IMG/VR virus record: IMGVR_UViG_3300033994_000722
Location: 1-41,873 of that record
Reading direction: 5' to 3' (one strand)
DNA length: 41,873 nucleotides
Source: a virus
Shown: piece after piece, positions 9,601 through 35,742 of the stretch
Layout of the letters: every line of letters starts with the position of its first letter
Numbering within the stretch: the stretch's first letter is position 1
Notes under the pieces: generated by a model
The model's database searches: none
Told to the model about the DNA's origin: nothing
Seen by the model: only the letters and a program-made list of their open reading frames with translations
Translations under genes and position numbers: made by a program

Positions 9601-9613
9601 AATGGATTGTCAA
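9585..9613 (-). promoter_or_regulatory. sigma70 promoter for the 62-residue gene
   Basis: -35 TTGACA (9608-9613), 17-nt spacer and -10 TATACT (9585-9590). The -35 overlaps the TGA stop of the glycosyltransferase gene, the same arrangement as at 6996-7001. Predicted start near 9578. Confidence 0.83.
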
Positions 9614-10506
9614 GCTTTGAAATTCGTTACAAGTTTCATACCATATTCGTTTGGTTCTTTTGGTAAAATGATGTCTTTTTTGTAACGCAGTTCATTCTTC
9701 TTGAATGGTGAATAGTCTACGTAATGATGCCAGCGTTTGTATCGCCAGACCATTCGTGCAACATCTGGATGCATTCTTACCAGCATCTCAGATTTGTTTC
9801 TCGTACCTTCAGCATTCACACCATCAATCCAAACATTCTTTTCAATACCTTCTTTGTGATAAAACTCTTCAGTGTTACCACCCTTAACAGTTTGTGTTGC
9901 TGCTTTACCTTGCAAGAATGCATTGAACTGAATAGTACAATCACCATCTTTCAAAACACGCAGACAGATATCAGTGTCTTCATTGTAACGACCACGCCAA
10001 CGATGTTTACAATTGTTATCTATCAACAGTGTAGAATAGATTCGAGTATTCTTTACATAAGGTGGATAACTTTGATTTGGTGCAATAAAGAATCGATACT
10101 GAAAACCAGAGATTGGTACATTCTCAAATCGGTCAACAAAATCTTCTGCTGCTTTGAAGATAACACCAGACTCTACACGGATACGATAGTTTTGATGCAG
10201 TCTATAGAAATCAGAAATATTATCATCAAGTACCCAATGTTTATCTGCACCAATAGAAATAGAATGATCCCATGCAAAGTTTCTTGCACGACCAGGGCCA
10301 TCACCATGATTACTGAATGGTGCAACAATCAACGTGACATAATCACGAATATTAAATTTATCTAATGCTTTATCATACGCTTCTTCATCTTGTGGTTCAA
10401 TCACAATATAATGAGGTACTTTCATTCTGGACAATGATTTTGACGTAATCATTGTATCAGAACGACCCTTAGAAACGATATAAACTGGATGTGTCGGATT
10501 CGTCAT
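9610..10506 (-). CDS. TET-associated-type glycosyltransferase (TAGT-like)
   Basis: This 298-residue protein begins 'HPVYIVSKGRSDTMITSKSL' and carries 'GPGRARNFAWDHSISIGADK' followed by 'HWVLDDNISDF' (DDN at 94-96), then 'RYNEDTDICLRVLKDG'. These fit the TAGT family, GT-A enzymes in phages often found near base-modifying enzymes and proposed to glycosylate hydroxymethylated bases. No TET/JBP oxygenase or thymidylate-synthase-like gene is in this window, so a DNA target is not demonstrated. The preceding gene is a methyltransferase, overlapping it by 38 nt. GGAAAAG precedes ATG 10506. Non-DNA acceptors remain possible. Confidence 0.72.
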   Translation of the reverse strand: MTNPTHPVYIVSKGRSDTMITSKSLSRMKVPHYIVIEPQDEEAYDKALDKFNIRDYVTLIVAPFSNHGDGPGRARNFAWDHSISIGADKHWVLDDNISDFYRLHQNYRIRVESGVIFKAAEDFVDRFENVPISGFQYRFFIAPNQSYPPYVKNTRIYSTLLIDNNCKHRWRGRYNEDTDICLRVLKDGDCTIQFNAFLQGKAATQTVKGGNTEEFYHKEGIEKNVWIDGVNAEGTRNKSEMLVRMHPDVARMVWRYKRWHHYVDYSPFKKNELRYKKDIILPKEPNEYGMKLVTNFKA

Positions 10507-11269
10507 TTCTTTTCCATATCAAAGGTTTGTTATTCCATATTCCACATTTGATGTTATCATAGTGTCTTCTTTTCAAATGCTGATTAAACATCTTGCTTAT
10601 TTTTTCTTGACTCACCATTGTACCATAAACATCATATTGTGTAAAGTGTCCCATCCCCCATGTGTTGAATGAGTTTGCAATTATCATATGTTTCGGTTTT
10701 AGAGTACCAATAATATCGTCAACGTGTTCAATCGGATTATAAATGTGTTCAAAGTATTCTGAAGCAAATAATATATCAACAGGTTCGCCAATCTCAGTAA
10801 TTGAGCCAACTAGATTGAAGTTCATTCTTTCTGCCATTATTTCACAGAACTTCCATTGTTTAGTATCTCTTAGATTGATTGCATAAACTTTGGCTTCAGG
10901 AAATAACTGTTTCAATAAACTTGTGCTGTAACTTATACCACAACCAATATCAACAATAACTTTAGGTTCTTTCAGTTCTCCAAAGTGTGATGACTTTAAA
11001 ATTCTTTTAACGTAGTCTCGACTATATGAGACAAAACAATTGAACACATCAATAAAATAGTAGTCATGATTGTAAACCTCATAGATGTTTCCGGTATCTG
11101 TATTTGCTAAATCATCATACCATTTGTTCGACAATTCTTGAAAGATTTTATCAGTCTTTCGAATTGCTCGACACTCTTCGGCATCTATAGAAAACAAACT
11201 GCCATAATCTTTGAGAAAATACTCAAACAATACTTGAGGCTTTTCTTTAAGAAAATCTACTTGACTCAT
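10469..11269 (-). CDS. class I SAM-dependent methyltransferase
   Basis: This 266-residue protein has a Rossmann-type SAM-binding motif I 'VIVDIGCGISYS' (104-115), an acidic-loop region 'AKVYAINLRD', and motif IV-like 'PVDILFASEYFEHI' (about 173-186). The last lacks a DPPY/NPPY signature, so it is more likely a small-molecule, sugar or protein methyltransferase than a base amino-methylase. The N-terminal ~95 residues are helical and unrecognised. It is followed, with overlap, by the TAGT-like glycosyltransferase and preceded (4-nt overlap) by a 116-residue unknown, suggesting joint function. Substrate unknown. Confidence 0.78.
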   Translation of the reverse strand: MSQVDFLKEKPQVLFEYFLKDYGSLFSIDAEECRAIRKTDKIFQELSNKWYDDLANTDTGNIYEVYNHDYYFIDVFNCFVSYSRDYVKRILKSSHFGELKEPKVIVDIGCGISYSTSLLKQLFPEAKVYAINLRDTKQWKFCEIMAERMNFNLVGSITEIGEPVDILFASEYFEHIYNPIEHVDDIIGTLKPKHMIIANSFNTWGMGHFTQYDVYGTMVSQEKISKMFNQHLKRRHYDNIKCGIWNNKPLIWKRNDESDTSSLYRF

Positions 11270-11616
11270 GCCTCAATCCATCTCTTCAAAGAGTTTTCAT
11301 CTCTTTCAAGTTTTGGATACCAGATTGATTTTGTTTTCTCTGTAAGATTTTGGTCCACCAATTTTGCAAACGCTTCATAATCTTCTTTGTTTCGGAAATG
11401 AAGATAGATTGTTTTATATGTTTTCTTATCATTCTGTTCAAACATTGGCATACCAACCCAATGCTTTTGCCATTCGGCATTTTGAACATCAACGCCTTCA
11501 TTGTCATCATCACTCTCACCAAAAAAACGATTTAGAGTTGGTGGTTGATATTCATCAGTAAGCAACTCCATACAATTTTCATATGTGCCAGTTTCTTGAA
11601 TCTCAGACTTTTTCAT
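11266..11616 (-). CDS. phage protein of unknown function (116 aa)
   Basis: This 116-residue protein ends with 'YKTIYLHFRNKEDYEAFAKLV' and 'LTEKTKSIWYPK', a segment I associate with small conserved phage proteins and with C-terminal tails of some phage DNA-modification or ParB-like proteins. The N-terminal half contains an acidic loop (SDDDNEG). The central 'EWQKHWVGMPMFEQNDKK' looks like an aromatic-rich binding motif. It overlaps the deformylase gene by 14 nt and the methyltransferase gene by 4 nt, so it belongs to the same transcript. GAGGAAAG precedes the ATG. Function not assigned. Confidence 0.65.
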   Translation of the reverse strand: MKKSEIQETGTYENCMELLTDEYQPPTLNRFFGESDDDNEGVDVQNAEWQKHWVGMPMFEQNDKKTYKTIYLHFRNKEDYEAFAKLVDQNLTEKTKSIWYPKLERDENSLKRWIEA

Positions 11617-12181
11617 TTTTCTTTCCTCTAATAATTTTCTTTACCATCTTATTAGCTTTCTGTCTTGCCATTTTTAATGCAAGTGGTTTAACATACTCAG
11701 TATATCTTATTCCATCAAGGTGGTCAAGTTCATGTAGGAAACAACGTGCAGAAAGACCTTCTAATCTCACTTGTTTTGTTTCACCGTTTTCATCCAAAAA
11801 CTCTGCTTCAATCCAAGATGGACGGTCAACATTCAAAAACAATGCAGGAAAAGAAAGACAACCTTCTTTATCTTTTACAAATGGACCAGCTGCGGTAACT
11901 TTTGGATTGATGCATACTAGTTGAAACTCTTCTGTTCCAATTACAAACATTCTTTCAGCAACACCACACTGATTTGCTGAAAGACCAAGACCAGCATAAA
12001 GCTTCATCGTCATCTTCAATCGTTTACTCAGTGTAACTAATGCTGGTGCTGGAAACGTACCAGTATATTCTGGTATTTTTTGACCAAGCATAGAAAAATC
12101 TTCTCCGTATACACGAAGAGGATCAATTCTTTCGGCTGTTTGTAGACCAGCAGATGTATCAATTGTTAGAATTTCACTCAT
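11603..12181 (-). CDS. def: peptide deformylase
   Basis: This 192-residue enzyme removes the formyl group from nascent proteins. All three family motifs are present: GLGLSANQ (64-71, standing for GxGLAAxQ), EGCLS (106-110, metal-binding Cys108) and HELDH (150-154, metal-binding His150 and His154 with catalytic Glu151). It has the usual deformylase length and no targeting peptide. Phage deformylases are common in T4-like cyanophages, where they are thought to sustain turnover of host or phage proteins. ATG 12181 overlaps the gp46 stop (ATGA), coupling it to the recombination genes. Confidence 0.95.
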   Translation of the reverse strand: MSEILTIDTSAGLQTAERIDPLRVYGEDFSMLGQKIPEYTGTFPAPALVTLSKRLKMTMKLYAGLGLSANQCGVAERMFVIGTEEFQLVCINPKVTAAGPFVKDKEGCLSFPALFLNVDRPSWIEAEFLDENGETKQVRLEGLSARCFLHELDHLDGIRYTEYVKPLALKMARQKANKMVKKIIRGKKNEKV

Positions 12182-13887: not shown

Positions 13888-14954
13888 TCAGTATCAGTGC
13901 TTAACGCTTCAATGTAAAGTTCGTGCATAATGTTTTTAAGTTTAACAGACTCTACATCAAGTGTCAAGTTATCTATGTACTTAGAAAGAATTGTCATTGT
14001 ATCTTCCGCTTCATCGATGGAAGTATCATCGTTTCCATTTTCTACATCACCAAAGTCTTCAACAATCGACAAGTCTGCTACGCCAGCTTTATAAAGATTA
14101 TCTATCACAATATCAAACAAGAATGGGTTTTGTTTACATAGAACAACAACTTTCACATAACTTCCTGTATAGATGGAATAATCAAATGTTCTGTAGTTTT
14201 CTGCAAAATGTTCCAAATCATCTTTATAATTTAGTTTGTAGAACATACGATGTGGATTTCGTATGAACTCAAGTTCTCTTGTATTGGTATCAAAGATATG
14301 AAATCCTCTTGGGTCGTTATAGTCTGCCCAAGTTATTTCATATGGCGTACCAACATAAGTGATTGTACCGTCAGTTGATTTGTGGTGAAAATGTCCAGTA
14401 AGAACAACATCATATTTGTCAATCTTCTTTTTATCTAGACCTTCATGACAAATATTTCCACGGTCCATTTCGAAACCAGCAAGTTCGAAATGTCCAAAAC
14501 AAATTTGTGACTTTGATTTTTTTATCTCAGATAAGATTTCAGCTTCGTTATCGTCACATATCCAAGGTACAATATCAACATCAATCCCATCAAACTGCAT
14601 TGTAGTAAAAGTATCCAATACAGTAATGTTATCATATCCGTCTAGAAGTAATTGTGATGAATTAACTTGAAGGGTGTTTTTGAACGCAACATCATGGTTA
14701 CCAAGCAATGTATAAAGTGTGATGTTGTTCTCTTTAAGTTTATCAAAAAAATATTCACGACACAAGTATAGTGAATTAAAGTTGATAAACTTACGGCGGT
14801 CGAATAAATCGCCCAGTTGTATAATGGTTGAAATACCATTTTCTTTTAGGTAAGGAAAAAATACATCGTTGTAAAACTTCTCTGCATATTTATGAAAGTC
14901 CAACGAATCATTACGCATACCAAAATGCGTATCACCTAAAATACATAGTTTCAT
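13884..14954 (-). CDS. 47: recombination endonuclease subunit gp47 (Mre11-like)
   Basis: This 356-residue calcineurin-like phosphoesterase is the nuclease of the gp46/47 complex. Metal-binding motifs appear in order: GDTHFG (7-12), GDLFDRR (about 48-54), GNHD (about 84-87) and GHFHH (about 181-185). The length agrees with T4 gp47 (339). The C-terminal third is acidic ('DVENGNDDTSIDEAEDT') and would form the capping/Rad50-binding part. It overlaps its neighbours on both sides by ATGA, with the cytidylyltransferase upstream and gp46 downstream. Confidence 0.95.
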   Translation of the reverse strand: MKLCILGDTHFGMRNDSLDFHKYAEKFYNDVFFPYLKENGISTIIQLGDLFDRRKFINFNSLYLCREYFFDKLKENNITLYTLLGNHDVAFKNTLQVNSSQLLLDGYDNITVLDTFTTMQFDGIDVDIVPWICDDNEAEILSEIKKSKSQICFGHFELAGFEMDRGNICHEGLDKKKIDKYDVVLTGHFHHKSTDGTITYVGTPYEITWADYNDPRGFHIFDTNTRELEFIRNPHRMFYKLNYKDDLEHFAENYRTFDYSIYTGSYVKVVVLCKQNPFLFDIVIDNLYKAGVADLSIVEDFGDVENGNDDTSIDEAEDTMTILSKYIDNLTLDVESVKLKNIMHELYIEALSTDTE

Positions 14955-15391
14955 TTAGATTTATTTTCCAGTTTAGCTAGTTCAGCTTCGTAAATGCGTT
15001 TTCGTAATGAAGAACTGCTGTATGGGTGTTCTCTATTATGATAATGTAATTCTATGCCATGATCTAAACACCACTGTTTTCCAGTGAAGTCTTTTGTTTT
15101 ATACTCATCACCAAGAAAACGGATATCGATGTGCTGTGTCTTCAAAAGATTCAACAAGTCTTCTTCGGTGTGATAAACAATCACTTCATCAACATATTTA
15201 CATGCTGAGACACAGACATAACGTTCATAAATGGACATTATGGGTTTATTTTTTGTGTCTGGTCTATCAACGGTTGGGTCAACTTGAATTGCAACAATAA
15301 GATAGTCACAATATCTTTTTTCTTCTCTCAACATCGTTACATGACCTGCATGAAACAAATCAAATGTACTGCAATTAAATCCTACTTTCAT
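14951..15391 (-). CDS. cytidylyltransferase-family nucleotidyltransferase
   Basis: This 146-residue protein matches the TagD / HldE-C-terminal family, which joins CTP or ATP to a sugar or polyol phosphate. It has the HxGH nucleotide motif (H14-A-G-H17), 'GFNCSTFDLFHAGHVTML' at the start, a 'FLGDEYKTKDFTGK' loop and a C-terminal 'SSSSLRKRI' standing for the family's ISSTxIR. Two activities fit: glycerol-3-phosphate cytidylyltransferase or heptose-1-phosphate adenylyltransferase. The nearby HddA-like kinase, which makes sugar-1-phosphates, favours sugar activation. It is inserted between gp55 and gp47 with ATGA overlaps on both sides. Confidence 0.85.
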   Translation of the reverse strand: MKVGFNCSTFDLFHAGHVTMLREEKRYCDYLIVAIQVDPTVDRPDTKNKPIMSIYERYVCVSACKYVDEVIVYHTEEDLLNLLKTQHIDIRFLGDEYKTKDFTGKQWCLDHGIELHYHNREHPYSSSSLRKRIYEAELAKLENKSK

Positions 15392-15924
15392 TTTTCAGTC
15401 TCATCATCCAAAAATTGTTCAAGTCCAGTTGCTTTCTTTACGCTTTTCTTTTTCTTATTCTCTTCAAAATTATGGATAAATTCTGAGATGTTATCATACA
15501 ATTCAAATTGCCTCATGTTTCCATCTTCATCTTCAAACATCTCTCCCTCATCAAGTAATCCAAATTGTTGTGTTGCTTTATACTTAACATATAACTGTTT
15601 CTTCTCACGCATAATTCTACGTAAGAATGCATAATATATTATCTGTGTAAAATAAGCAAATGGATTTGTTGATTTTGCCGGGTCAAAATTGCGGAAGTAC
15701 ATCAAACAATTTTCAACACCATCAGATATCATCTCATCACGATAAGTATATGATATGAAGTTTGGTTTTCTTGATAGATGTTCCGCAATTTTTAGAAAAC
15801 ATTCGCCAATGTAATTTGGAACTTTTGGTTCTGGTGTTCCATCTCTCTCCGATATGACGCAATCTTCTTTATATTTTATTAATGCTGCTAAAAAATCAGC
15901 GTTGTTTACGTAATGGGTTGCCAT
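15388..15924 (-). CDS. 55: late-transcription sigma factor gp55
   Basis: This 178-residue protein is the T4 gp55 homologue, a minimal sigma factor that directs host RNA polymerase to TATAAATA late promoters. Conserved segments are 'YVNNADFLAALIKYKE', 'RDEMISDGVENCLMYFRNFD' and 'NPFAYFTQIIYYAFLRRI', the sigma region 2-like helices. The C-terminus 'LEQFLDDETEK' is a short hydrophobic-acidic tail, which I infer to be the sliding-clamp contact by analogy with T4. Matching octamers occur upstream of virion genes in this window. TAATG overlap with the epimerase gene. Confidence 0.93.
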   Translation of the reverse strand: MATHYVNNADFLAALIKYKEDCVISERDGTPEPKVPNYIGECFLKIAEHLSRKPNFISYTYRDEMISDGVENCLMYFRNFDPAKSTNPFAYFTQIIYYAFLRRIMREKKQLYVKYKATQQFGLLDEGEMFEDEDGNMRQFELYDNISEFIHNFEENKKKKSVKKATGLEQFLDDETEK

Positions 15925-16865
15925 TATACATTACCATGAATATTGTTCTTGATGTATGTGTATCCCTTAATAAGTTCAACAATACCATCATCAAGTGTAT
16001 GATATGGCATCCATCCAGTTGCTTCTAACTTTTCATTTGAAACGATATAGTTACGTTGGTCAGGGTCTTTCTTGATATCGCCTTCTACGATTGTAAAGCT
16101 TGGAATATGTTTCTTAATAATTTCACACAACTCTAATTTAGAAACGTTTGCTGAAGAAAGACCTACGTTGTAAATATTACCACGCATATTTTCAAACTGA
16201 TGAATTGCGTGTAAGAATGCTTCACATACATCACGCACATGGACATAATTACGTTTGAAGTGACCCTCAAAGATGATAGTATAACCATCATTCACTGCAC
16301 GATATGTCAAGTCATTAACCAACAAATCTGTACGCATACGCGGTGACATACCGAATACTGTAGCAAGACGATAGCTGATTGAATTTTCACGCTGCATTAA
16401 TTCTTTTTCTACTGCAACTTTATCGACCGCATACTTTGAAATAGGACGTAGTGGAGAATCTTCTGTACAGAAGTTATTTTCATCACCGGTACCATAAGCA
16501 GAATTTGTTGTAGGCATAATGATGCGCTGTTCATTTGATACATTCTTTAGCATCCAGAACATTGCATCTTTATTTGTTGTGTCTGCACCAACAACATCTT
16601 TGTTACACAATGGTGCGCCAACAAGTGCAGCAAGAGGAATAATAATATCTGCTTCTTTCAGCAGTTGTGCCATATGTGCTGGATTACGAATATCACCATT
16701 CACGATGGTCAAGTCTTTATTTTCACAAAGATGATTCAATCCACTTTGACGAAACATAAAGTTATCCAATACAGTAACTTTACATCCTATTTGCAATAAG
16801 TATTCTACTAGAATACAACCAATGTAACCAGCTCCACCAGTTACTAATACTCGCCACTGTCCCAT
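15924..16865 (-). CDS. NAD-dependent sugar epimerase/dehydratase (SDR)
   Basis: This 313-residue extended short-chain dehydrogenase has the NAD motif GGAGYIG (10-16), a 'VNGDIR' acidic turn (about 55-60), catalytic Ser122 and the YxxxK pair Y145/K149 ('KYAVDKV'). It would act on a nucleotide-linked sugar as epimerase, dehydratase or 4-ketoreductase. The closest picture is the NAD-epimerase family found in LPS O-antigen operons. It follows the ColD-like gene and is fused by TAATG to the sigma gene, so the sugar operon runs into the late-gene regulator. If the ColD-like neighbour makes a 4-keto-3-deoxysugar, this enzyme could epimerise or reduce it. Confidence 0.87.
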   Translation of the reverse strand: MGQWRVLVTGGAGYIGCILVEYLLQIGCKVTVLDNFMFRQSGLNHLCENKDLTIVNGDIRNPAHMAQLLKEADIIIPLAALVGAPLCNKDVVGADTTNKDAMFWMLKNVSNEQRIIMPTTNSAYGTGDENNFCTEDSPLRPISKYAVDKVAVEKELMQRENSISYRLATVFGMSPRMRTDLLVNDLTYRAVNDGYTIIFEGHFKRNYVHVRDVCEAFLHAIHQFENMRGNIYNVGLSSANVSKLELCEIIKKHIPSFTIVEGDIKKDPDQRNYIVSNEKLEATGWMPYHTLDDGIVELIKGYTYIKNNIHGNV

Positions 16866-16866
16866 A

Positions 16867-18042
16867 TTATACCCTATTTAAAATGTTTACGATTTCATTG
16901 ATTGCTGATTCTTTTAGTGTTGGATAATTTCCAATGTAGAACGAATAAAAATGCATGTGGTCAGTATTCGGAAAGTTCCTATAATGATTTTCTGGTACAA
17001 TATTTTTCAAATATGGTTGTCTCAATTGATTTCCACCACCAGCAGAGCCACGACGAAACTCAATTCCTTCATCACGCATTTTACCCATCAAACGATTTAC
17101 AAAATATTCTGTACAATAGTCATGCTGTAGCACTATGTTAAACGCATAGTTACTACATCCTATCAATCTAAAATCTACCTTATACTTTTTCTGGTCTAGC
17201 TTTGATAAGAAGTGAAATAGATTTTTATTTCTAAGTTTAACATTTTCATCCAGATATTTCAACTGATTTTGACCAAGTATACCGCCAATTTCATTGTTAC
17301 GCATGTTGTATGCTGGATATGCGAAAATGAAATCTGGATTTAATTCTGGATTTTCTGCTTTATATTTTTCAGACATCTTTGAACTACCGCATTCACGTAC
17401 CATACCGTGTGAACGGAGCATACGAACTGTGTGATAAACTTCTTCATCATTTGTACAAACCATACCACCTTCAATCGTTGACATGTGGTGTGCAAAATAA
17501 AATGAGAAGTTTGACATCCAACCAAAGCTACCCAAAAGCTTTTGATTATGTGTTGCACCATGCGATTCACACACATCTTCAATCAAAGGAATGTTACGAT
17601 GACGAAGAACTTCTAATACTCTGTCAGATAAGCAGTCGAAGCCTTGAGCGTAAGTTATAAAGACAGCACGTGTCTTATCTGTGATAGCATTTAGTATGCC
17701 ATCCTCATTCATACCAAGAGTGTCTAAGTCGATGTCAACAAATACTGGAGTGAATCCGCATTGAAGAATAGAAGCGATATCAGATACCCATGTAAATGGC
17801 GGCACAATCACTTCACCACCTTCTGGATGTTTAATCTTCAACATTGTCATTGACAATAGATTTGCAGAAGCACCGGAATTGACAAAGACTGAATACTTTA
17901 CACCCAACCATTTAGACCATGCTTCTTCAAAAGCACGACACTCTGGTCCATTCGTAAGTTTTGGATTATCTTTTTTGAGATGTTCTATTACCAAATCTAA
18001 ATCTTCTCTTGTAATATTATCAGACATTAAAGGATACTTCAT
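16867..18042 (-). CDS. ColD-like PLP-dependent sugar 3-dehydratase (DegT family, Lys replaced by His)
   Basis: This 391-residue DegT/DnrJ/EryC1-fold enzyme has the PLP-binding 'NSGASANLL' loop, 'IVPPFTWVSDI', and 'EDVCESHGA' (Asp ring-nitrogen contact). Where aminotransferases have the Schiff-base lysine, it reads 'FYFAHHMSTIEGGM' (His185-His186), as in ColD and the E1-type 3-dehydratases (RfbH/DdhC), where His acts as base. It is therefore predicted to remove the C3 hydroxyl of a nucleotide-4-ketohexose rather than simply transaminate. ATG 18042 is chosen because GGAG lies 5 nt before it; a GTG at 18048 is in frame. No ferredoxin partner is nearby, which favours the ColD type. Confidence 0.85.
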   Translation of the reverse strand: MKYPLMSDNITREDLDLVIEHLKKDNPKLTNGPECRAFEEAWSKWLGVKYSVFVNSGASANLLSMTMLKIKHPEGGEVIVPPFTWVSDIASILQCGFTPVFVDIDLDTLGMNEDGILNAITDKTRAVFITYAQGFDCLSDRVLEVLRHRNIPLIEDVCESHGATHNQKLLGSFGWMSNFSFYFAHHMSTIEGGMVCTNDEEVYHTVRMLRSHGMVRECGSSKMSEKYKAENPELNPDFIFAYPAYNMRNNEIGGILGQNQLKYLDENVKLRNKNLFHFLSKLDQKKYKVDFRLIGCSNYAFNIVLQHDYCTEYFVNRLMGKMRDEGIEFRRGSAGGGNQLRQPYLKNIVPENHYRNFPNTDHMHFYSFYIGNYPTLKESAINEIVNILNRV

Positions 18043-18044
18043 CG

Positions 18045-19028
18045 TCACTCCATGATAATTGTGCTGCCACTATAGTCAAATTTAAATGGCACCCACACGT
18101 TGATTTCAGGTATTGCTAGTTTAATTTTTTCATGTGCATCAGGCGGAGCAAGAAACATAAAGAAACCACCACCACCAGCACCCATCAATTTACCACCATA
18201 TGCACCAGCTTTTATTGCTTTGTTATATATTGTATCTATATACTCACTCGTTACATCATTTGTTAGTTCTCTTTTGTAGTACCACTGTTCAACAAGAAGG
18301 TCGCCTAACTCTTTCATCGGTTGTTCATCAATCATTAAATCATATGCACAATTTGATACTCTGGATATAGCATCCAAATATTTTTCCGATTTGCCTGATT
18401 TAATATTTTCAACTTGTTGTTTAGCATGAACATCAGAAAATCTATCAATACCAGAAAAGCCTAACATAATATGCTTTTCTAAATTGTTTTCGTATTCAAA
18501 AGATACATCTAAAGATAAAACTTTTATTTTGTCTTTTGAAAGTTCAATAACATTTAAACCACCATAAGCGGCTGCAATCTGATCTTGTACACCGACAGAT
18601 TCACCAATTCGATTCTGTTCAATATCTATTGCTGCTCTAGCAAGGTCATATGCATGATTTGATTTGCCTAGATAAGTTGTGATGGCATTTACCAGTCCAA
18701 CAGTAAATGCAGAAGATGATCCAATGCCAGAACGAGCAGGAAGGTCGCCGTCGTGGCTAATAGAAATACCATTAGATATATCATAATACTTTAAACACTC
18801 CCTTACTGAAGGATGTTCTATCTCAGATATGTCATCAACAGTTTCTATCTTTGAATAGATAATCCGATTAGCATGTTCAAAATAAGGCGGTAACTTCTTT
18901 AAACTTATATAGCAATAATGAGCCATTGCAGCAGAGATTACTCTAGATGGATGTTTTTCATACCATGCTGGATAATCTGTGCCACCTCCAAATAAAGATA
19001 AACGATACGGTGTTTTAGATATGATCAT
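18045..19028 (-). CDS. GHMP kinase, heptose-7-phosphate-kinase-like (HddA family)
   Basis: This 327-residue GHMP kinase has motif 1 'TPYRLSLFGGGTDYPAWY', motif 2 'LPARSGIGSSSAFTVGL' (96-112; the ATP-binding loop) and motif 3 'KLMGAGGGGFFMFL'. The pattern 'HDGDLPARSG...IEQNRIGESVGVQDQIAAAYGG' (split here by ellipsis) is that of D-glycero-D-manno-heptose 7-phosphate kinase and relatives in LPS clusters. It would produce a sugar-1-phosphate for the nucleotidyltransferase nearby. No isomerase (GmhA-like) or phosphatase is seen in the window, so the precursor may come from the host. ATGA overlap with the thiamine-enzyme beta gene. Confidence 0.85.
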   Translation of the reverse strand: MIISKTPYRLSLFGGGTDYPAWYEKHPSRVISAAMAHYCYISLKKLPPYFEHANRIIYSKIETVDDISEIEHPSVRECLKYYDISNGISISHDGDLPARSGIGSSSAFTVGLVNAITTYLGKSNHAYDLARAAIDIEQNRIGESVGVQDQIAAAYGGLNVIELSKDKIKVLSLDVSFEYENNLEKHIMLGFSGIDRFSDVHAKQQVENIKSGKSEKYLDAISRVSNCAYDLMIDEQPMKELGDLLVEQWYYKRELTNDVTSEYIDTIYNKAIKAGAYGGKLMGAGGGGFFMFLAPPDAHEKIKLAIPEINVWVPFKFDYSGSTIIME

Positions 19029-19555
19029 TTTTCATTATAATAATCACCATACTCAACCAATATGGTAGATTTTCCATCTCTTCTCAGATATGCTGTGCAG
19101 TATGCATCGTAGACATGTCTTGGTTCTTCTAACTTAATTATATCAGTATTTGGGCAAAGAAGTCTATAGGCATCTGTATAATCACCGACATGTTGATGTT
19201 GTGGATGTAAAGGTCTTTCAGAACCAATACCAGTTCTTATGATAATTCTTGGCTTGTAATCGGACATCATCGTAATTTTATCTACGTGATTGACTAACTG
19301 ATTTGTTGCACACACTAGAAAATTCCAACGTGGATAAATGCTCACAGGAATATAACCAGCAAGTGCTAAACCCAATGTCATGCCCATTTGTGTGTCTTCA
19401 AACACAGGCATTTCTAATAATTGTTCTTTAGGAACATCTTTTAGTGTGTTAGACATTGCTGTACCAGCATACTCTACTGCTTGACCCATAAAGATAACTC
19501 TTGGATCACCAGCAAGCATGTTCATTGCACGTTTTAGTTCGTCAAAGTATTTCAA
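19025..19555 (-). CDS. E1-beta-like thiamine-diphosphate enzyme subunit, C-terminal domain missing
   Basis: This 176-residue protein corresponds to the pyrimidine-binding domain of 2-oxoacid dehydrogenase E1-beta. It has 'DPRVIFMGQAVEYAG', 'PVFEDTQMGMTLGLALAGYIPV' with the ThDP-activating Glu (E53) and 'RPLHPQHQHVGDY'. E1-beta is normally about 325 residues; the C-terminal transketolase_C domain is absent, with a clean stop. The start is TTG 19555, overlapping the alpha stop and preceded by GAGGG 7-8 nt upstream. The next ATG (residue 11) would remove family sequence. Together with the alpha subunit it may form a transferase passing a two-carbon unit to a sugar. Confidence 0.83.
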   Translation of the reverse strand: MKYFDELKRAMNMLAGDPRVIFMGQAVEYAGTAMSNTLKDVPKEQLLEMPVFEDTQMGMTLGLALAGYIPVSIYPRWNFLVCATNQLVNHVDKITMMSDYKPRIIIRTGIGSERPLHPQHQHVGDYTDAYRLLCPNTDIIKLEEPRHVYDAYCTAYLRRDGKSTILVEYGDYYNEK

Positions 19556-20151
19556 AATTGTACCCTCATTCCCGCACCAGCATGTGGATATTTTGTTTCA
19601 TATTCATAATAATAAATGGATTCGTGTTCACAATTCTTATATGATGATTCTGATACACCCCAAGTTTTATTTGTATCAGTACAAACAGATTTGCCATTAT
19701 CTTCAACAATAAATTTGATAGGCAGTTCATGTTGAATAGAATACTTGAAGTTTTCCATGAAGATGCCAGATTCTGATGTCATGTCACCAACAAAGCAATA
19801 CACCTTCGTGTCAATCTTTTTACGTTTCATTGCCATCGCAGTTCCTACTGCAATAGGAATATTGCCACCAACAATTGCTGATGAGTATATGTTGTATTGT
19901 GGATAACAAAGTGAGATTGACTTGCCTTCCAAAATATCTTTTTCTAAAACATCTGGCGGCACACCTTTCAACAGACATTGATAATGTGAACGCCATGAAC
20001 AAAACACCCAATCTATTGACCGAATGTTTTTGAAGATTTTTATCATTTCATTCTCATTGCCATAGTACAGATGAATTGGCGCACGAATTCTGCCATTGTT
20101 GAAATGATCAGCAATCTTATCTTCGAATGCGATAAGTTCTTGTTTAGTCAC
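19552..20151 (-). CDS. E1-alpha-like thiamine-diphosphate enzyme subunit, short form
   Basis: This 199-residue protein is the ThDP-binding domain of a dehydrogenase E1-alpha. It has 'SWRSHYQCLLKG' (the YRxH-type substrate His), 'SAIVGGNIPIAVGTAMAMK', and the ThDP/Mg motif GD...DN: GDM at 122-124 and DN at 151-152, 27 residues apart. E1-alpha is usually 330-400 residues, so both ends are trimmed. It uses a GTG start at 20151, overlapping the radical-SAM stop, with GGAAAA upstream. No E2/E3 genes are near, so full oxoacid dehydrogenase activity is unlikely. AviB1/AviB2-like acyl transfer in branched sugar synthesis is a precedent. Confidence 0.83.
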   Translation of the reverse strand: MTKQELIAFEDKIADHFNNGRIRAPIHLYYGNENEMIKIFKNIRSIDWVFCSWRSHYQCLLKGVPPDVLEKDILEGKSISLCYPQYNIYSSAIVGGNIPIAVGTAMAMKRKKIDTKVYCFVGDMTSESGIFMENFKYSIQHELPIKFIVEDNGKSVCTDTNKTWGVSESSYKNCEHESIYYYEYETKYPHAGAGMRVQF

Positions 20152-21661
20152 CTAGAATTTTCCTTTTCAATCTAATCTTGGACATCTCTTCAATATTTTT
20201 ACGTGAATCAATTCCAAATTTGTTTTCAACAAGATTCAAGAATGGTCCATGTGAAAAGTATTTGTGCCAAGCATCATCACGAAACTTCAATACTTCAGCA
20301 CCAGTTAGTGCTTTTGTTCTGAGTGGTTTACAGTCATATGATAGAAATGCGAACTCATCGAACGTCTGTGGTAATTCCCATTTATTATTAACTGCTTCCA
20401 TATAAAGTGGACTACCAGGTAATGCCATTGCTGCATAGAAGTTTGCATGTTCACAGTTTAACTCAAGTGCAAGGTCTAAAGTTTCTTGCATTGTCTCTTG
20501 TGTATCTTCTGGAAAACCAAACATGTAATTGCCCAACACATTGATACCAGCATCTTTAATGTCTTGTACAACTTCACGAATATCAACTTGCTTGAATCGA
20601 CCTTTATCAATTTCTAAACGAACTTGTGGATTACCTGCTTCGATACCAAGTGCAAGCCAATTTACTCCAGCTTCTTTGAACAATTCTAGTTGGTCTTTTC
20701 GAACGGAATCTACACGTGCATATGCCCAGAAATTAAACTTCATTCCACGGTCAACCAGACCTTGCAGAATAGGAACATAATATTTTTTGTTTAGAAAAAA
20801 CATCTCATCAGTCAAACGAACTGTGCGTACACCATTTTCCCATAGATATTCAAATTCTTTCAACATTAATTCTGGTGACCAGAAACGCATACCACGAGTA
20901 TCGGATGATACTGTGCCTTGTTGATATGATGTTCTATTGACGATATTAATCATACAGAAGTTGCAACCAAATGAACAACCCAGTGATGTTGAGATTGCAG
21001 CAAATGGTGTACGACCTTCGTCTTTGAAATATGAATGCCAATAATGCGCTCTGTATTTGTCTAATAAGTTGTTATCTTTTGGTAGCAAATCCCATGCATA
21101 ACCTGGCATAACTCTGTCCATATCTTTCGTTTGAACAATCTCACCAGGAGCACCCGTCGCAGCAAAGCCATGTTTCTTATATACCAGACCACGAACTTTG
21201 TCTAGTTCATCAACATAGTTTGTTTGCAGCAAATCTAGCAGACCATAAACACCCTCATTGATGAATACGAAATCAACATAAGGTAAACCAATAACATCAT
21301 ATGGCAATGCAGAAGCATGTGAGCCGATGAATACTGTTTTGATTGATGGATGTGATGCTTTAAGTTGCTTTGCTAGTTTTGATGCACCAATCATCATCGT
21401 GGTGCCTGAGTTTGGATTTTGTCCATAAAGAACAAAGACTGCTATATCAGTTTTTGTATCCGCAATTTTCTCTGCTGCTTGTTCAACACTTGTAGGTTCA
21501 GCATCAAAATCTAAAATACAAGGATTATATCCATCAACACGAACAGCGTTAGCAAGTAACAATGCCCATGTTGGCGGTTCAATAGCAGAATACTTATTAG
21601 AGAGTTCCTGATATGCTTGTGCAGCACTGCTTGGTATAACAAATGTCACCACTTTTGACAT
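20144..21661 (-). CDS. B12-binding radical SAM protein
   Basis: This 505-residue protein has an N-terminal cobalamin-binding-type Rossmann domain (about 1-160: 'EPPTWALLLANAVRVDGY', 'DIAVFVLYGQNPNS', 'TVFIGSHASALP') and a radical SAM TIM-barrel with the cluster motif C229-x3-C233-x2-C236. The barrel continues with 'WALGIEAGNPQVR' and 'LGNYMFGFPEDT'. Such enzymes methylate unactivated carbons or make other radical changes on lipids, sugars or peptides. It opens the sugar cassette, so a C-methylation or similar step on the sugar is a reasonable guess. The DHxLY-type B12 axial motif is not visible. AAAGGAT precedes the ATG. Confidence 0.87.
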   Translation of the reverse strand: MSKVVTFVIPSSAAQAYQELSNKYSAIEPPTWALLLANAVRVDGYNPCILDFDAEPTSVEQAAEKIADTKTDIAVFVLYGQNPNSGTTMMIGASKLAKQLKASHPSIKTVFIGSHASALPYDVIGLPYVDFVFINEGVYGLLDLLQTNYVDELDKVRGLVYKKHGFAATGAPGEIVQTKDMDRVMPGYAWDLLPKDNNLLDKYRAHYWHSYFKDEGRTPFAAISTSLGCSFGCNFCMINIVNRTSYQQGTVSSDTRGMRFWSPELMLKEFEYLWENGVRTVRLTDEMFFLNKKYYVPILQGLVDRGMKFNFWAYARVDSVRKDQLELFKEAGVNWLALGIEAGNPQVRLEIDKGRFKQVDIREVVQDIKDAGINVLGNYMFGFPEDTQETMQETLDLALELNCEHANFYAAMALPGSPLYMEAVNNKWELPQTFDEFAFLSYDCKPLRTKALTGAEVLKFRDDAWHKYFSHGPFLNLVENKFGIDSRKNIEEMSKIRLKRKILGD

Positions 21662-35307: not shown

Positions 35308-35742
35308 TTATCGTGTAAAACTTCTCAACATCCATCCGTGTTTTTGATGAGCATCTAAAATATCTTGTAAAAAGTTTCCTACTGCTGGCTCATCAGCAGC
35401 ATCAGCAAGAGCAATTCCTGAACGGAGTTCCATAATAAATTTATCATTATCGTTTGCAAGTTCACTCATCATAATAAGTGGTGATGGAATAGCCACCAAG
35501 TCGTTGACTTTGGAAAGCTCAATCATTCTTGCCAATGATGTTGGAGTGTATGAACCTAATGCACGAATATGTTCTGCAATTGAATCTGTTTGGTCAAATA
35601 CAGCATCATAGAATGTTCCTAAAAATCCATGATACTCTGCAAAATTAGGACCTTCTACATTCCAATGGAATGTGTGTGCTTTGAAGTACAAACCAAAATT
35701 TGTACCAAGAATAACTTTCATCTGTTCTATTAATTGTTCCAT
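35308..35742 (-). CDS. Dps/ferritin-like protein
   Basis: This 144-residue protein has the Dps helix pattern 'FHWNVEGPNFAEYHGFLGTF' followed by 'DQTDSIAEHIRALGSYTPTS'. Ferroxidase ligands map as His26, His38, Asp53 and Glu57, but the position of the second-helix Asp (D67 in E. coli Dps) is Gly42. Iron chemistry may thus be altered. Length is that of the Dps core without a basic DNA-binding tail. Dps normally protects DNA from iron and peroxide. Its place between small and large terminase suggests late expression, perhaps protecting phage DNA during packaging. GAGGAAA precedes the ATG. Confidence 0.87.
   Translation of the reverse strand: MEQLIEQMKVILGTNFGLYFKAHTFHWNVEGPNFAEYHGFLGTFYDAVFDQTDSIAEHIRALGSYTPTSLARMIELSKVNDLVAIPSPLIMMSELANDNDKFIMELRSGIALADAADEPAVGNFLQDILDAHQKHGWMLRSFTR

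Follow-up and report, generated by a model that had tools for sequence, protein, structure and literature searches.

The DNA examined here is a 41,873-base virus record (IMG/VR IMGVR_UViG_3300033994_000722), referred to below as the window, and its interval 14951–21661 carries a putative nucleotide-sugar cassette. PHROGs matches to a major head protein, portal, tail sheath, terminase, UvsY, an SbcC/SbcD-type pair and gp55 assign the record to a T4-like phage; we take the SbcC/SbcD-type pair to be gp46 and gp47, and the UvsW-type helicase to be uvsW. Six coupled minus-strand genes lie between this helicase, with an adjoining small gene, and gp55. They encode, in order, a radical S-adenosylmethionine (SAM) protein with a B12-binding domain (505 residues, 20144–21661; Pfam Radical_SAM 76 bits, B12-binding 37 bits); an E1-alpha-like, thiamine diphosphate (ThDP)-binding subunit of short form (199 residues, 19552–20151, GTG start; E1_dh 53 bits); an E1-beta-like, pyrimidine-binding subunit, also short (176 residues, 19025–19555, TTG start; Transket_pyr 31 bits); a GHMP-family, HddA-like kinase (327 residues, 18045–19028; GHMP_kinases_N 54 bits, GHMP_kinases_C 40 bits); a predicted DegT/ColD-like C3-dehydratase dependent on pyridoxamine phosphate (PMP) (393 residues, 16867–18048, GTG start; DegT_DnrJ_EryC1 221 bits); and a short-chain dehydrogenase/reductase (SDR), predicted to be an NAD-dependent nucleotide-heptose C4-dehydrogenase of the Cj1427 type (313 residues, 15924–16865; Epimerase 104 bits).

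From the radical SAM gene through to the DegT gene, successive overlaps measure 8, 4, 4 and 4 bases. A 1-base gap separates the DegT and SDR genes, and the SDR gene overlaps gp55 by 1 base. The late sigma factor gp55 (15388–15924, minus strand; phrog_234, 209 bits) thus falls within the interval but has no part in the sugar pathway. It overlaps by 4 bases an accessory, non-core gene for an HldE-C/TagD-like nucleotidyltransferase (146 residues, 14951–15391, minus strand; CTP_transf_like 56 bits). An earlier reading of this DNA (the original prediction) had named the cassette genes; each was found as an open reading frame on the minus strand with its family matched by Pfam, and the Pfam and NCBIfam naming agrees with the earlier one. 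What could be observed is gene content, homology, catalytic residues, order, co-occurrence and purifying selection, and the reactions discussed below are all inferred from these.

Searching IMG/VR with the E1-alpha protein returned 39 other contigs, of which the 38 that are T4-like were used for the synteny counts, the divergent locus L036 being treated apart. All six genes are present in 28 of the 38, in identical order and on the same strand, and in the remaining 10 the end of the locus cuts into the cassette; for this reason we regard the six-gene cassette as a real unit, beyond chance association. Ratios of nonsynonymous to synonymous substitution (dN/dS) lay between 0.03 and 0.28 for the six genes in seven phage pairs, the kinase being the loosest (0.16–0.28); the comparison genes gp46, gp47 and uvsW gave 0.04–0.12 where computable. 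These observations bear on the idea that the cassette is stuffer DNA or a decaying acquisition with no function in the phage. Stuffer DNA has been raised as a possibility for the lipopolysaccharide (LPS) clusters of cyanophages (PMC3037559, available portion), but a single gene order in 38 of 38 contigs, the dN/dS values and the retained catalytic residues make it scarcely credible here. The residue counts that follow use full-length rows only (0.9–1.25 of the query length, more than 85% covered, start and stop found); they include near-identical phage copies and leave out the cyanophage and L043 relatives.

The original prediction had also placed a cytidylyltransferase in the cassette. It was rejected as a core member, being found after gp55 in 3 of the 18 phage loci long enough to tell (L002, L003 and L032). 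A further 15 loci include gp47; in 12 it follows gp55 directly, at 3–8 bases, and in L010, L018 and L019 other DNA separates the two. Six records were searched for the nucleotidyltransferase: that of L003 holds the same protein, those of L036 and two others hold distant relatives only, and two hold none. The expectation that no phage system of this composition was known has been borne out among 50,697 annotated phage records, none of which contains a relative of the radical SAM protein at 80% coverage of the query. Nor did the open-access full-text literature turn up a description of the gene set or of a branched 3-deoxy-heptose; the available portions of PMC7029224 and PMC9602691 deal with general phage LPS genes other than this set.

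The gene set is a common bacterial cluster and not specific to phages. Scanning genome contigs with E1-alpha gave 68 bacterial loci, 65 of them at 55–67% identity to the query, from Nitrospira, Pelagibacteraceae (SAR11), SAR116, Piscinibacter and other Burkholderiales, Verrucomicrobia, cyanobacteria, Bacteroidales and others. At an identity of at least 35% within the fetched stretches, all six genes are found in 45 of the 68 loci, E1-beta in 67, the kinase in 61, the SDR in 59, DegT in 58 and the radical SAM protein in 54. The co-occurrence elsewhere that the original prediction had proposed to look for is therefore seen in both phages and bacteria. Profile counts for bacteria use 67 of the 68 loci, leaving out L116 (25% identity). 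When plasmids were searched with E1-alpha, the best 25 of 282 records were all at 28–33% identity.

A tree of five genes with 81 tips (midpoint root; rows with at least four of the five genes, 11 phage loci left out) united the T4-like phage cassettes in a single clade (support 1.0), with a large clade of bacteria as its neighbour (0.997), and grouped L036 with a Bacteroidales genome (0.997). Because the T4-like clade and L036 fall separately, the tree suggests two acquisitions by phages, presumably in the direction from bacteria. Linkage was also examined in a sample not chosen by E1-alpha, 117 Nitrospira-order genomes searched gene by gene at strict thresholds, which gave E1-alpha in 8, DegT in 10, the radical SAM protein in 30 and the SDR in 38. 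All 8 genomes with E1-alpha have the radical SAM, SDR and DegT genes on the same contig within 8.3 kb. The SDR is present in 30 of 30 genomes with the radical SAM protein, in 29 of them on the same contig within 8.3 kb, and in 22 of the 30 the radical SAM protein is a more distant one (37–43% identity). Hypergeometric values for this linkage, which ignore phylogeny, are 7e-21 and 7e-11.

One indication of the substrate comes from the SDR. It matches Cj1427 (6vo6/6vo8) at 348 bits over residues 5–311, versus 72 bits for the next solved sequence, and its AlphaFold2 (AF2) model (pLDDT 91.8) superposes on Cj1427 with a TM score of 0.95 and 51% identity. The titles of both structures name Cj1427, one entry having been solved in the presence of GDP-D-glycero-D-mannoheptose. 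Tyr145 and Lys149 of the YxxxK motif are present in 76 of 76 full-length members. By sequence, fold and motif the SDR is of the Cj1427 type, and we predict with good confidence that it oxidises C4. A GDP-heptose is very likely its substrate, since the enzyme is a Cj1427 relative and the bacterial clusters carry heptose genes: at E ≤ 1e-12, raw matches to an HddC-like NTP-transferase profile occur in 54 of 67 loci and to a GmhA profile in 20, tblastn with the Solidesulfovibrio proteins gives 49 HddC-like and 16 GmhA-like matches in the same 67, and 13 Pelagibacteraceae loci have an HddC–GmhB-like fusion. The closest solved relatives of the cassette kinase are likewise heptose kinases (3k85 and 4n3o). 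On the phage side, 1 of 12 records searched, the longest T4-like one (133 kb), has a GmhA-like gene, away from the cassette.

These results depart from the original prediction, in which the substrate was a GDP- or CDP-4-keto-6-deoxyhexose; such a substrate is disfavoured by the relationship of the SDR to Cj1427 and by the heptose genes that stand beside the bacterial versions. A yersiniose-like branched sugar derived from a 6-deoxyhexose would be in keeping with ColD, which acts on a 6-deoxyhexose and to which the cassette DegT protein is related. Yersiniose and paulomycose, moreover, bear two-carbon branches at C4 (PMC4753412, available portion). However, a 4,6-dehydratase is missing from the cassette, and together with the wide gap in SDR score and the heptose-type genes around the bacterial clusters this makes a yersiniose-like product very unlikely.

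The gene neighbourhood offers a further clue to the SDR. According to the available part of PMC10680097, Cj1427 holds NADH tightly and turns over by reducing alpha-ketoglutarate to L-2-hydroxyglutarate. The pDMC1 cluster of Solidesulfovibrio magneticus includes lhgO, encoding L-2-hydroxyglutarate oxidase (328 bits, cut-off 299), with a GmhA-like gene following it. Among 67 other bacterial loci, 5 have LhgO relatives (35–43% identity) on the same strand, and a relative adjoins the SDR gene in one more Nitrospira-order genome, L142; the FAD-oxidoreductase of L036 gave no match to the LhgO model. As LhgO would remove the by-product of Cj1427, these neighbours provide circumstantial but specific backing for the proposed SDR chemistry.

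The best solved relatives of the DegT protein are ColD structures (2gms etc., 187–193 bits). In 73 of 73 full-length members, His replaces the Lys that binds pyridoxal phosphate (PLP), with HH at and before the position. An aminotransferase was rejected on this ground, the outcome that the original prediction had named as telling against it, and the residue agrees with the ColD-type enzyme proposed there. The protein is therefore likely to be a ColD-type C3-dehydratase, with deoxygenation predicted at C3. Cj1427 and a C3-dehydratase of C. jejuni together formed GDP-D-glycero-3-deoxy-4-keto-heptose in vitro, for which an m/z of 616.08 is reported (PMC10680097, available portion), and by analogy the cassette would seem to combine these two activities naturally. 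In related clusters of a second type, the same position of DegT is occupied by Gln in the Nitrospira-order loci L138, L139 and L141 (GHQMSTIEGG; neither Lys nor His), by Ile in S. magneticus and by His in L140 and L142.

The two E1-like subunits retain the residues expected of a thiamine-dependent enzyme. His56 of the E1-alpha RSH motif is present in 103 of 103 full-length members, and Glu53 and His122 of E1-beta in 98 of 98, residues to which we presumptively assign active-site roles; in the GDM motif, which binds ThDP, Asp is found in 36 of 36 viral rows and 33 of 67 bacterial rows. The two-subunit thiamine enzyme of the original prediction is upheld in this respect. Transket_pyr is the sole Pfam match of E1-beta, with no match to the Transketolase_C domain. 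That domain has a role in partnership within dehydrogenase complexes, so such a partnership is unlikely for the cassette protein, and the reading as pyruvate dehydrogenase complex subunits was rejected. In six Pelagibacteraceae loci (L095, L100, L101, L103, L104 and L108) a second, longer E1-like pair directly precedes the short pair (e.g., L104:8252–9088).

Across related clusters, the thiamine slot adjoining the radical SAM gene holds one of three kinds of pair: short E1, full E1 or transketolase-type. S. magneticus has a full-length E1 pair, and transketolase-type pairs occupy the slot in L139 and L140 (both subunits family-tested), in L141 (one tested) and in Azospirillum argentinense, whose adjacent kinase and oxidoreductase are identified by annotation only. 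The common theme of E1 and transketolase pairs is the handling of two-carbon units, and because these alternatives share it we favour branching over other roles; on balance, the E1-like pair would seem to transfer a two-carbon unit to C4.

The same heptose pathway might instead run without a branch at C4, the E1-like pair supplying or processing another unit (e.g., an acyl group or the radical SAM substrate) and the product being a modified 3-deoxy-heptose that lacks the branch and is completed, as in Campylobacter, by an epimerase and a C4-reductase. A GDP-fucose-synthase-like reductase profile matches 42 of 67 bacterial loci and an RmlC-like epimerase profile 14 of 67, which fits the epimerase and C4-reductase ending published for Campylobacter (PMC10440746, available portion). 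In addition, L142 and L138 carry SDR, HddA-like, HddC-like, DegT and radical SAM genes, with the thiamine pair not found in the fetched stretch. On the other hand, the C4-reductase is missing from the phage cassette, and the thiamine genes lie between the radical SAM and kinase genes in every phage locus reaching that far, L036 apart. They also stay linked in bacteria, and the pairs that replace them come from families that handle two-carbon units. An unbranched product is accordingly a doubtful alternative.

The radical SAM protein has CX3CX2C in 92 of 92 full-length members and a B12-binding domain (PF02310, 37.2 bits, cut-off 32.1), features that assign it to the cobalamin-dependent class. 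Its nearest NCBIfam model is HpnJ (122 bits, cut-off 578), followed by BchE, PhpK and a ladderane-type lipid enzyme, all below their cut-offs. Most of the class methylates, and HpnJ, BchE and ladderane synthase are among its few non-methylating members (PMC13142503, a preprint, available portion); HpnJ converts a glucosamine-bearing hopanoid to the cyclitol ether (PMC12583986, available portion). Among solved folds, the AF2 model (pLDDT 92.8) comes nearest to that of the sugar diol-dehydratase AprD4 (Z 30.5), followed by MgmA, CysS, TsrM and OxsB, a ranking that tells of fold and not of reaction. A rearrangement or dehydration may be at least as likely as methylation. The methylation suggested originally is compatible with a class that mostly methylates, but it is not clearly favoured when the preprint names three of the four nearest models as non-methylating and the nearest fold is that of AprD4. 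Anti-phage or counter-defence genes were down-weighted, PADLOC giving one weak match only (35 bits), between the radical SAM protein and PDC-M51A. On an Azospirillum argentinense plasmid, a separate cobalamin-dependent protein (L127:4111–5856) adjoins the transketolase pair and the radical SAM gene.

Taken together, we lean towards reading the cassette as the modification arm of a nucleotide-heptose pathway whose product is a 4-C-branched 3-deoxy-heptose. The phage would supply its HddA-like kinase to that pathway, and the SDR would oxidise C4 with its bound NAD, which alpha-ketoglutarate would regenerate as it does for Cj1427. The ColD-like PMP enzyme would then take off the C3 hydroxyl to leave GDP-3-deoxy-4-keto-heptose, onto whose C4 ketone the short E1-like alpha/beta enzyme would add an acyl unit of two carbons, pyruvate-derived acetyl being the likeliest. 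The resulting nine-carbon 4-C-branched 3-deoxy-heptose could be altered further by the radical SAM/B12 protein before entering the surface polysaccharide of the infected host. The branched 3-deoxysugar of the original prediction thus survives with respect to its nucleotide-sugar pathway, thiamine pair and ColD-type enzyme, loses its 6-deoxyhexose base, and has a two-carbon branch that is still inferred.

Several points weigh against this branched-heptose pathway. The sequence cannot reveal the donor and acceptor of the thiamine enzyme; in 34 of 67 bacterial E1-alpha proteins the GDM motif has Glu for Asp; and no thiamine pair was found in the fetched stretches of 2 of the 5 Nitrospira-order clusters of the second type (L138 and L142). 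If the thiamine enzyme consumes the C4 ketone, the reductase found in the bacterial loci needs another role, such as reduction of the acetyl branch. The best NCBIfam model for the kinase is HddA, but at 144 bits it is under the equivalog cut-off of 600 and can be named HddA-like only. The HddC-like protein (162 bits, equivalog cut-off 300) and the GmhB- and GmhA-like proteins also fall under their NCBIfam cut-offs, so that their best matches should be read as likenesses rather than as certified membership. Of 12 phage records, 2 contain an NTP_transferase, and the one scanned (G003, the 133-kb record) was without a match to the HddC model. At an identity of at least 35%, DegT is missing from 10 of the 68 bacterial loci, the SDR from 9, the kinase from 7 and the radical SAM protein from 14, several of these loci being cut by contig ends; a looser count at E 1e-5, weak matches included, finds DegT in 61 and the SDR in 61. 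Finally, L036 (in a 221-kb record) has the SDR, radical SAM, E1-alpha, E1-beta and DegT genes but lacks the GHMP kinase, and its sugar cluster is a different one that contains HldA-like and HldC-like genes. As these replace the kinase, the nucleotide in L036 may differ from GDP.

The gene neighbourhoods also speak to the destination of the sugar. In 11 Nitrospira loci, genes for a Wzm/Wzt-type ABC exporter come after the cluster, with glycosyltransferases nearby, which makes surface polysaccharide the natural sink in these bacteria. Use in the surface polysaccharide of the infected host is fairly probable for the phage cassette. A competing destination is the phage DNA or virion, decorated via the TET-associated-type glycosyltransferase (TAGT) encoded in the window at 9610–10506 (minus strand), which matches PF20691 TAGT at 150 bits and phrog_842, ‘beta-glucosyl-HMC-alpha-glucosyltransferase’, at 160 bits. 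However, TAGT is found in 5 of 11 phage records and cassette genes in 11 of 11, a hydroxymethylase-type enzyme of the thymidylate-synthase type is absent from 10 of the 11 (possibly fragments), the exception being the record of L036, and the Nitrospira copies adjoin polysaccharide exporter genes. DNA decoration was therefore down-weighted, and a DNA or virion destination is unlikely. A search for Tet/JBP gave no match in the phage records, but the controls were silent too, so that this result carries no weight. The glycosyltransferase gene overlaps a methyltransferase-like gene (10469–11269, minus strand), possibly as a DNA or surface glycosylation pair.

Since the cassette is coupled to gp55, it is probably expressed no later than this late sigma factor. 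Late expression was considered from the motif TATAAATA, but its 4 copies in the window are at chance level (46 of 100 shuffles reach that number) and are weak evidence; three minus-strand copies of TATAAATA lie near gene starts of the virion region and none near the cassette. The window also encodes a ferritin-like protein (35308–35742), an HSP20 chaperone (783–1319) and a peptide deformylase (11603–12181), all on the minus strand. Two long phage records contain a second sugar cluster (L122:6787–9697 and L124:7656–10373) with genes for an HldE-C-like nucleotidyltransferase, a GT2 glycosyltransferase, an RmlC-like epimerase and a GalE-type SDR, family-tested in L122 and assigned by eye in L124. 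The 133-kb record has a possible glycan cluster with an NTP_transferase and an SDR (L120:4857–11244), whose 317-residue protein has no NCBIfam match.

Overall, the earlier interpretation of the cassette is partly supported, with a different substrate and a wider occurrence in bacteria. A bolder reading, which we hold tentatively, is that one dedicated pathway, common to SAR11, Nitrospira, Burkholderiales and T4-like phages, leads to a GDP-linked, branched nine-carbon 3-deoxy-heptose of a class absent from the literature searched. This pathway might comprise a minimal two-subunit thiamine carboligase and an HpnJ/AprD4-like B12 radical rearrangement, possibly giving a carbocycle or a side-chain deoxy form, and phages might use it to rewrite the host surface. 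If true, environmental bacteria such as SAR11 and Nitrospira would make an overlooked class of surface sugars, and a group of phages would carry genes to rewrite the surface chemistry of its hosts, which would affect receptor use and superinfection. Others have already produced the key intermediate with enzymes, which brings the deciding reaction within experimental reach.

With its Cj1427-type SDR, PLP-family C3-dehydratase and HddA-type kinase, the cassette resembles the modification of capsular GDP-heptose in Campylobacter jejuni, and its bacterial versions share GmhA-, HddC-, RmlC- and reductase-like genes with that system. Cj1427 and the C3-dehydratase were paired in vitro for the Campylobacter enzymes (PMC10680097, available portion); the cassette carries both types. 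In contrast, the Campylobacter clusters with a C3-dehydratase (HS:5/HS:11) start from a 4,6-dehydratase and yield 3,6-dideoxy-heptoses (PMC10440746, available portion), and the available portions of PMC10440746 and PMC10680097 mention no thiamine pair or radical SAM protein. Thiamine-dependent branching is known from elsewhere. For the E1-like pairs AviB1/AviB2 (avilamycin) and Pau11/Pau12 (paulomycin), the proposed role is to attach a pyruvate-derived acetyl branch to a sugar at C4 (PMC4425429, PMC4753412, available portions). Pau11 and Pau12 measure 325 and 345 residues (PMC4425429, available portion), versus 199 and 176 in the cassette, where the beta subunit is without a Transketolase_C match; the avilamycin and paulomycin sugars are hexose-derived octoses, and the likeness is drawn from the published descriptions of the pairs. 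YerE, which branches the LPS sugar yersiniose at C4 in a thiamine-dependent step like that proposed here, differs in being a single flavoprotein dependent on thiamine pyrophosphate (PMC4753412, available portion).

Closer in gene content are the clusters of the second type, in S. magneticus pDMC1, the Nitrospira order and Azospirillum, which have a related radical SAM protein, kinase and DegT without Lys, often a thiamine pair and, where tested, an SDR of the Cj1427 type. They differ in that the pair is a full-length E1 or transketolase pair, or none was found (L138 and L142). The T4-like cyanophages S-SM2 and P-TIM68 have a related thiamine enzyme (40–42% identity to E1-alpha), alpha and beta being fused and annotated as ‘transketolase central region’ (P-TIM68, L041:8986–10194; S-SM2, L042:8983–10191), next to an HldA-like kinase, an annotated nucleotidyltransferase and an annotated phosphoheptose isomerase. 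These phages differ from the cassette in having no radical SAM relative, and the HddA-like kinase and ColD-like protein were not in the fetched stretches. Relative to all of these systems, the cassette would unite two separately known chemistries, C4-oxidation with C3-deoxygenation of a heptose and thiamine-dependent branching of a sugar, and add a radical SAM step to them.

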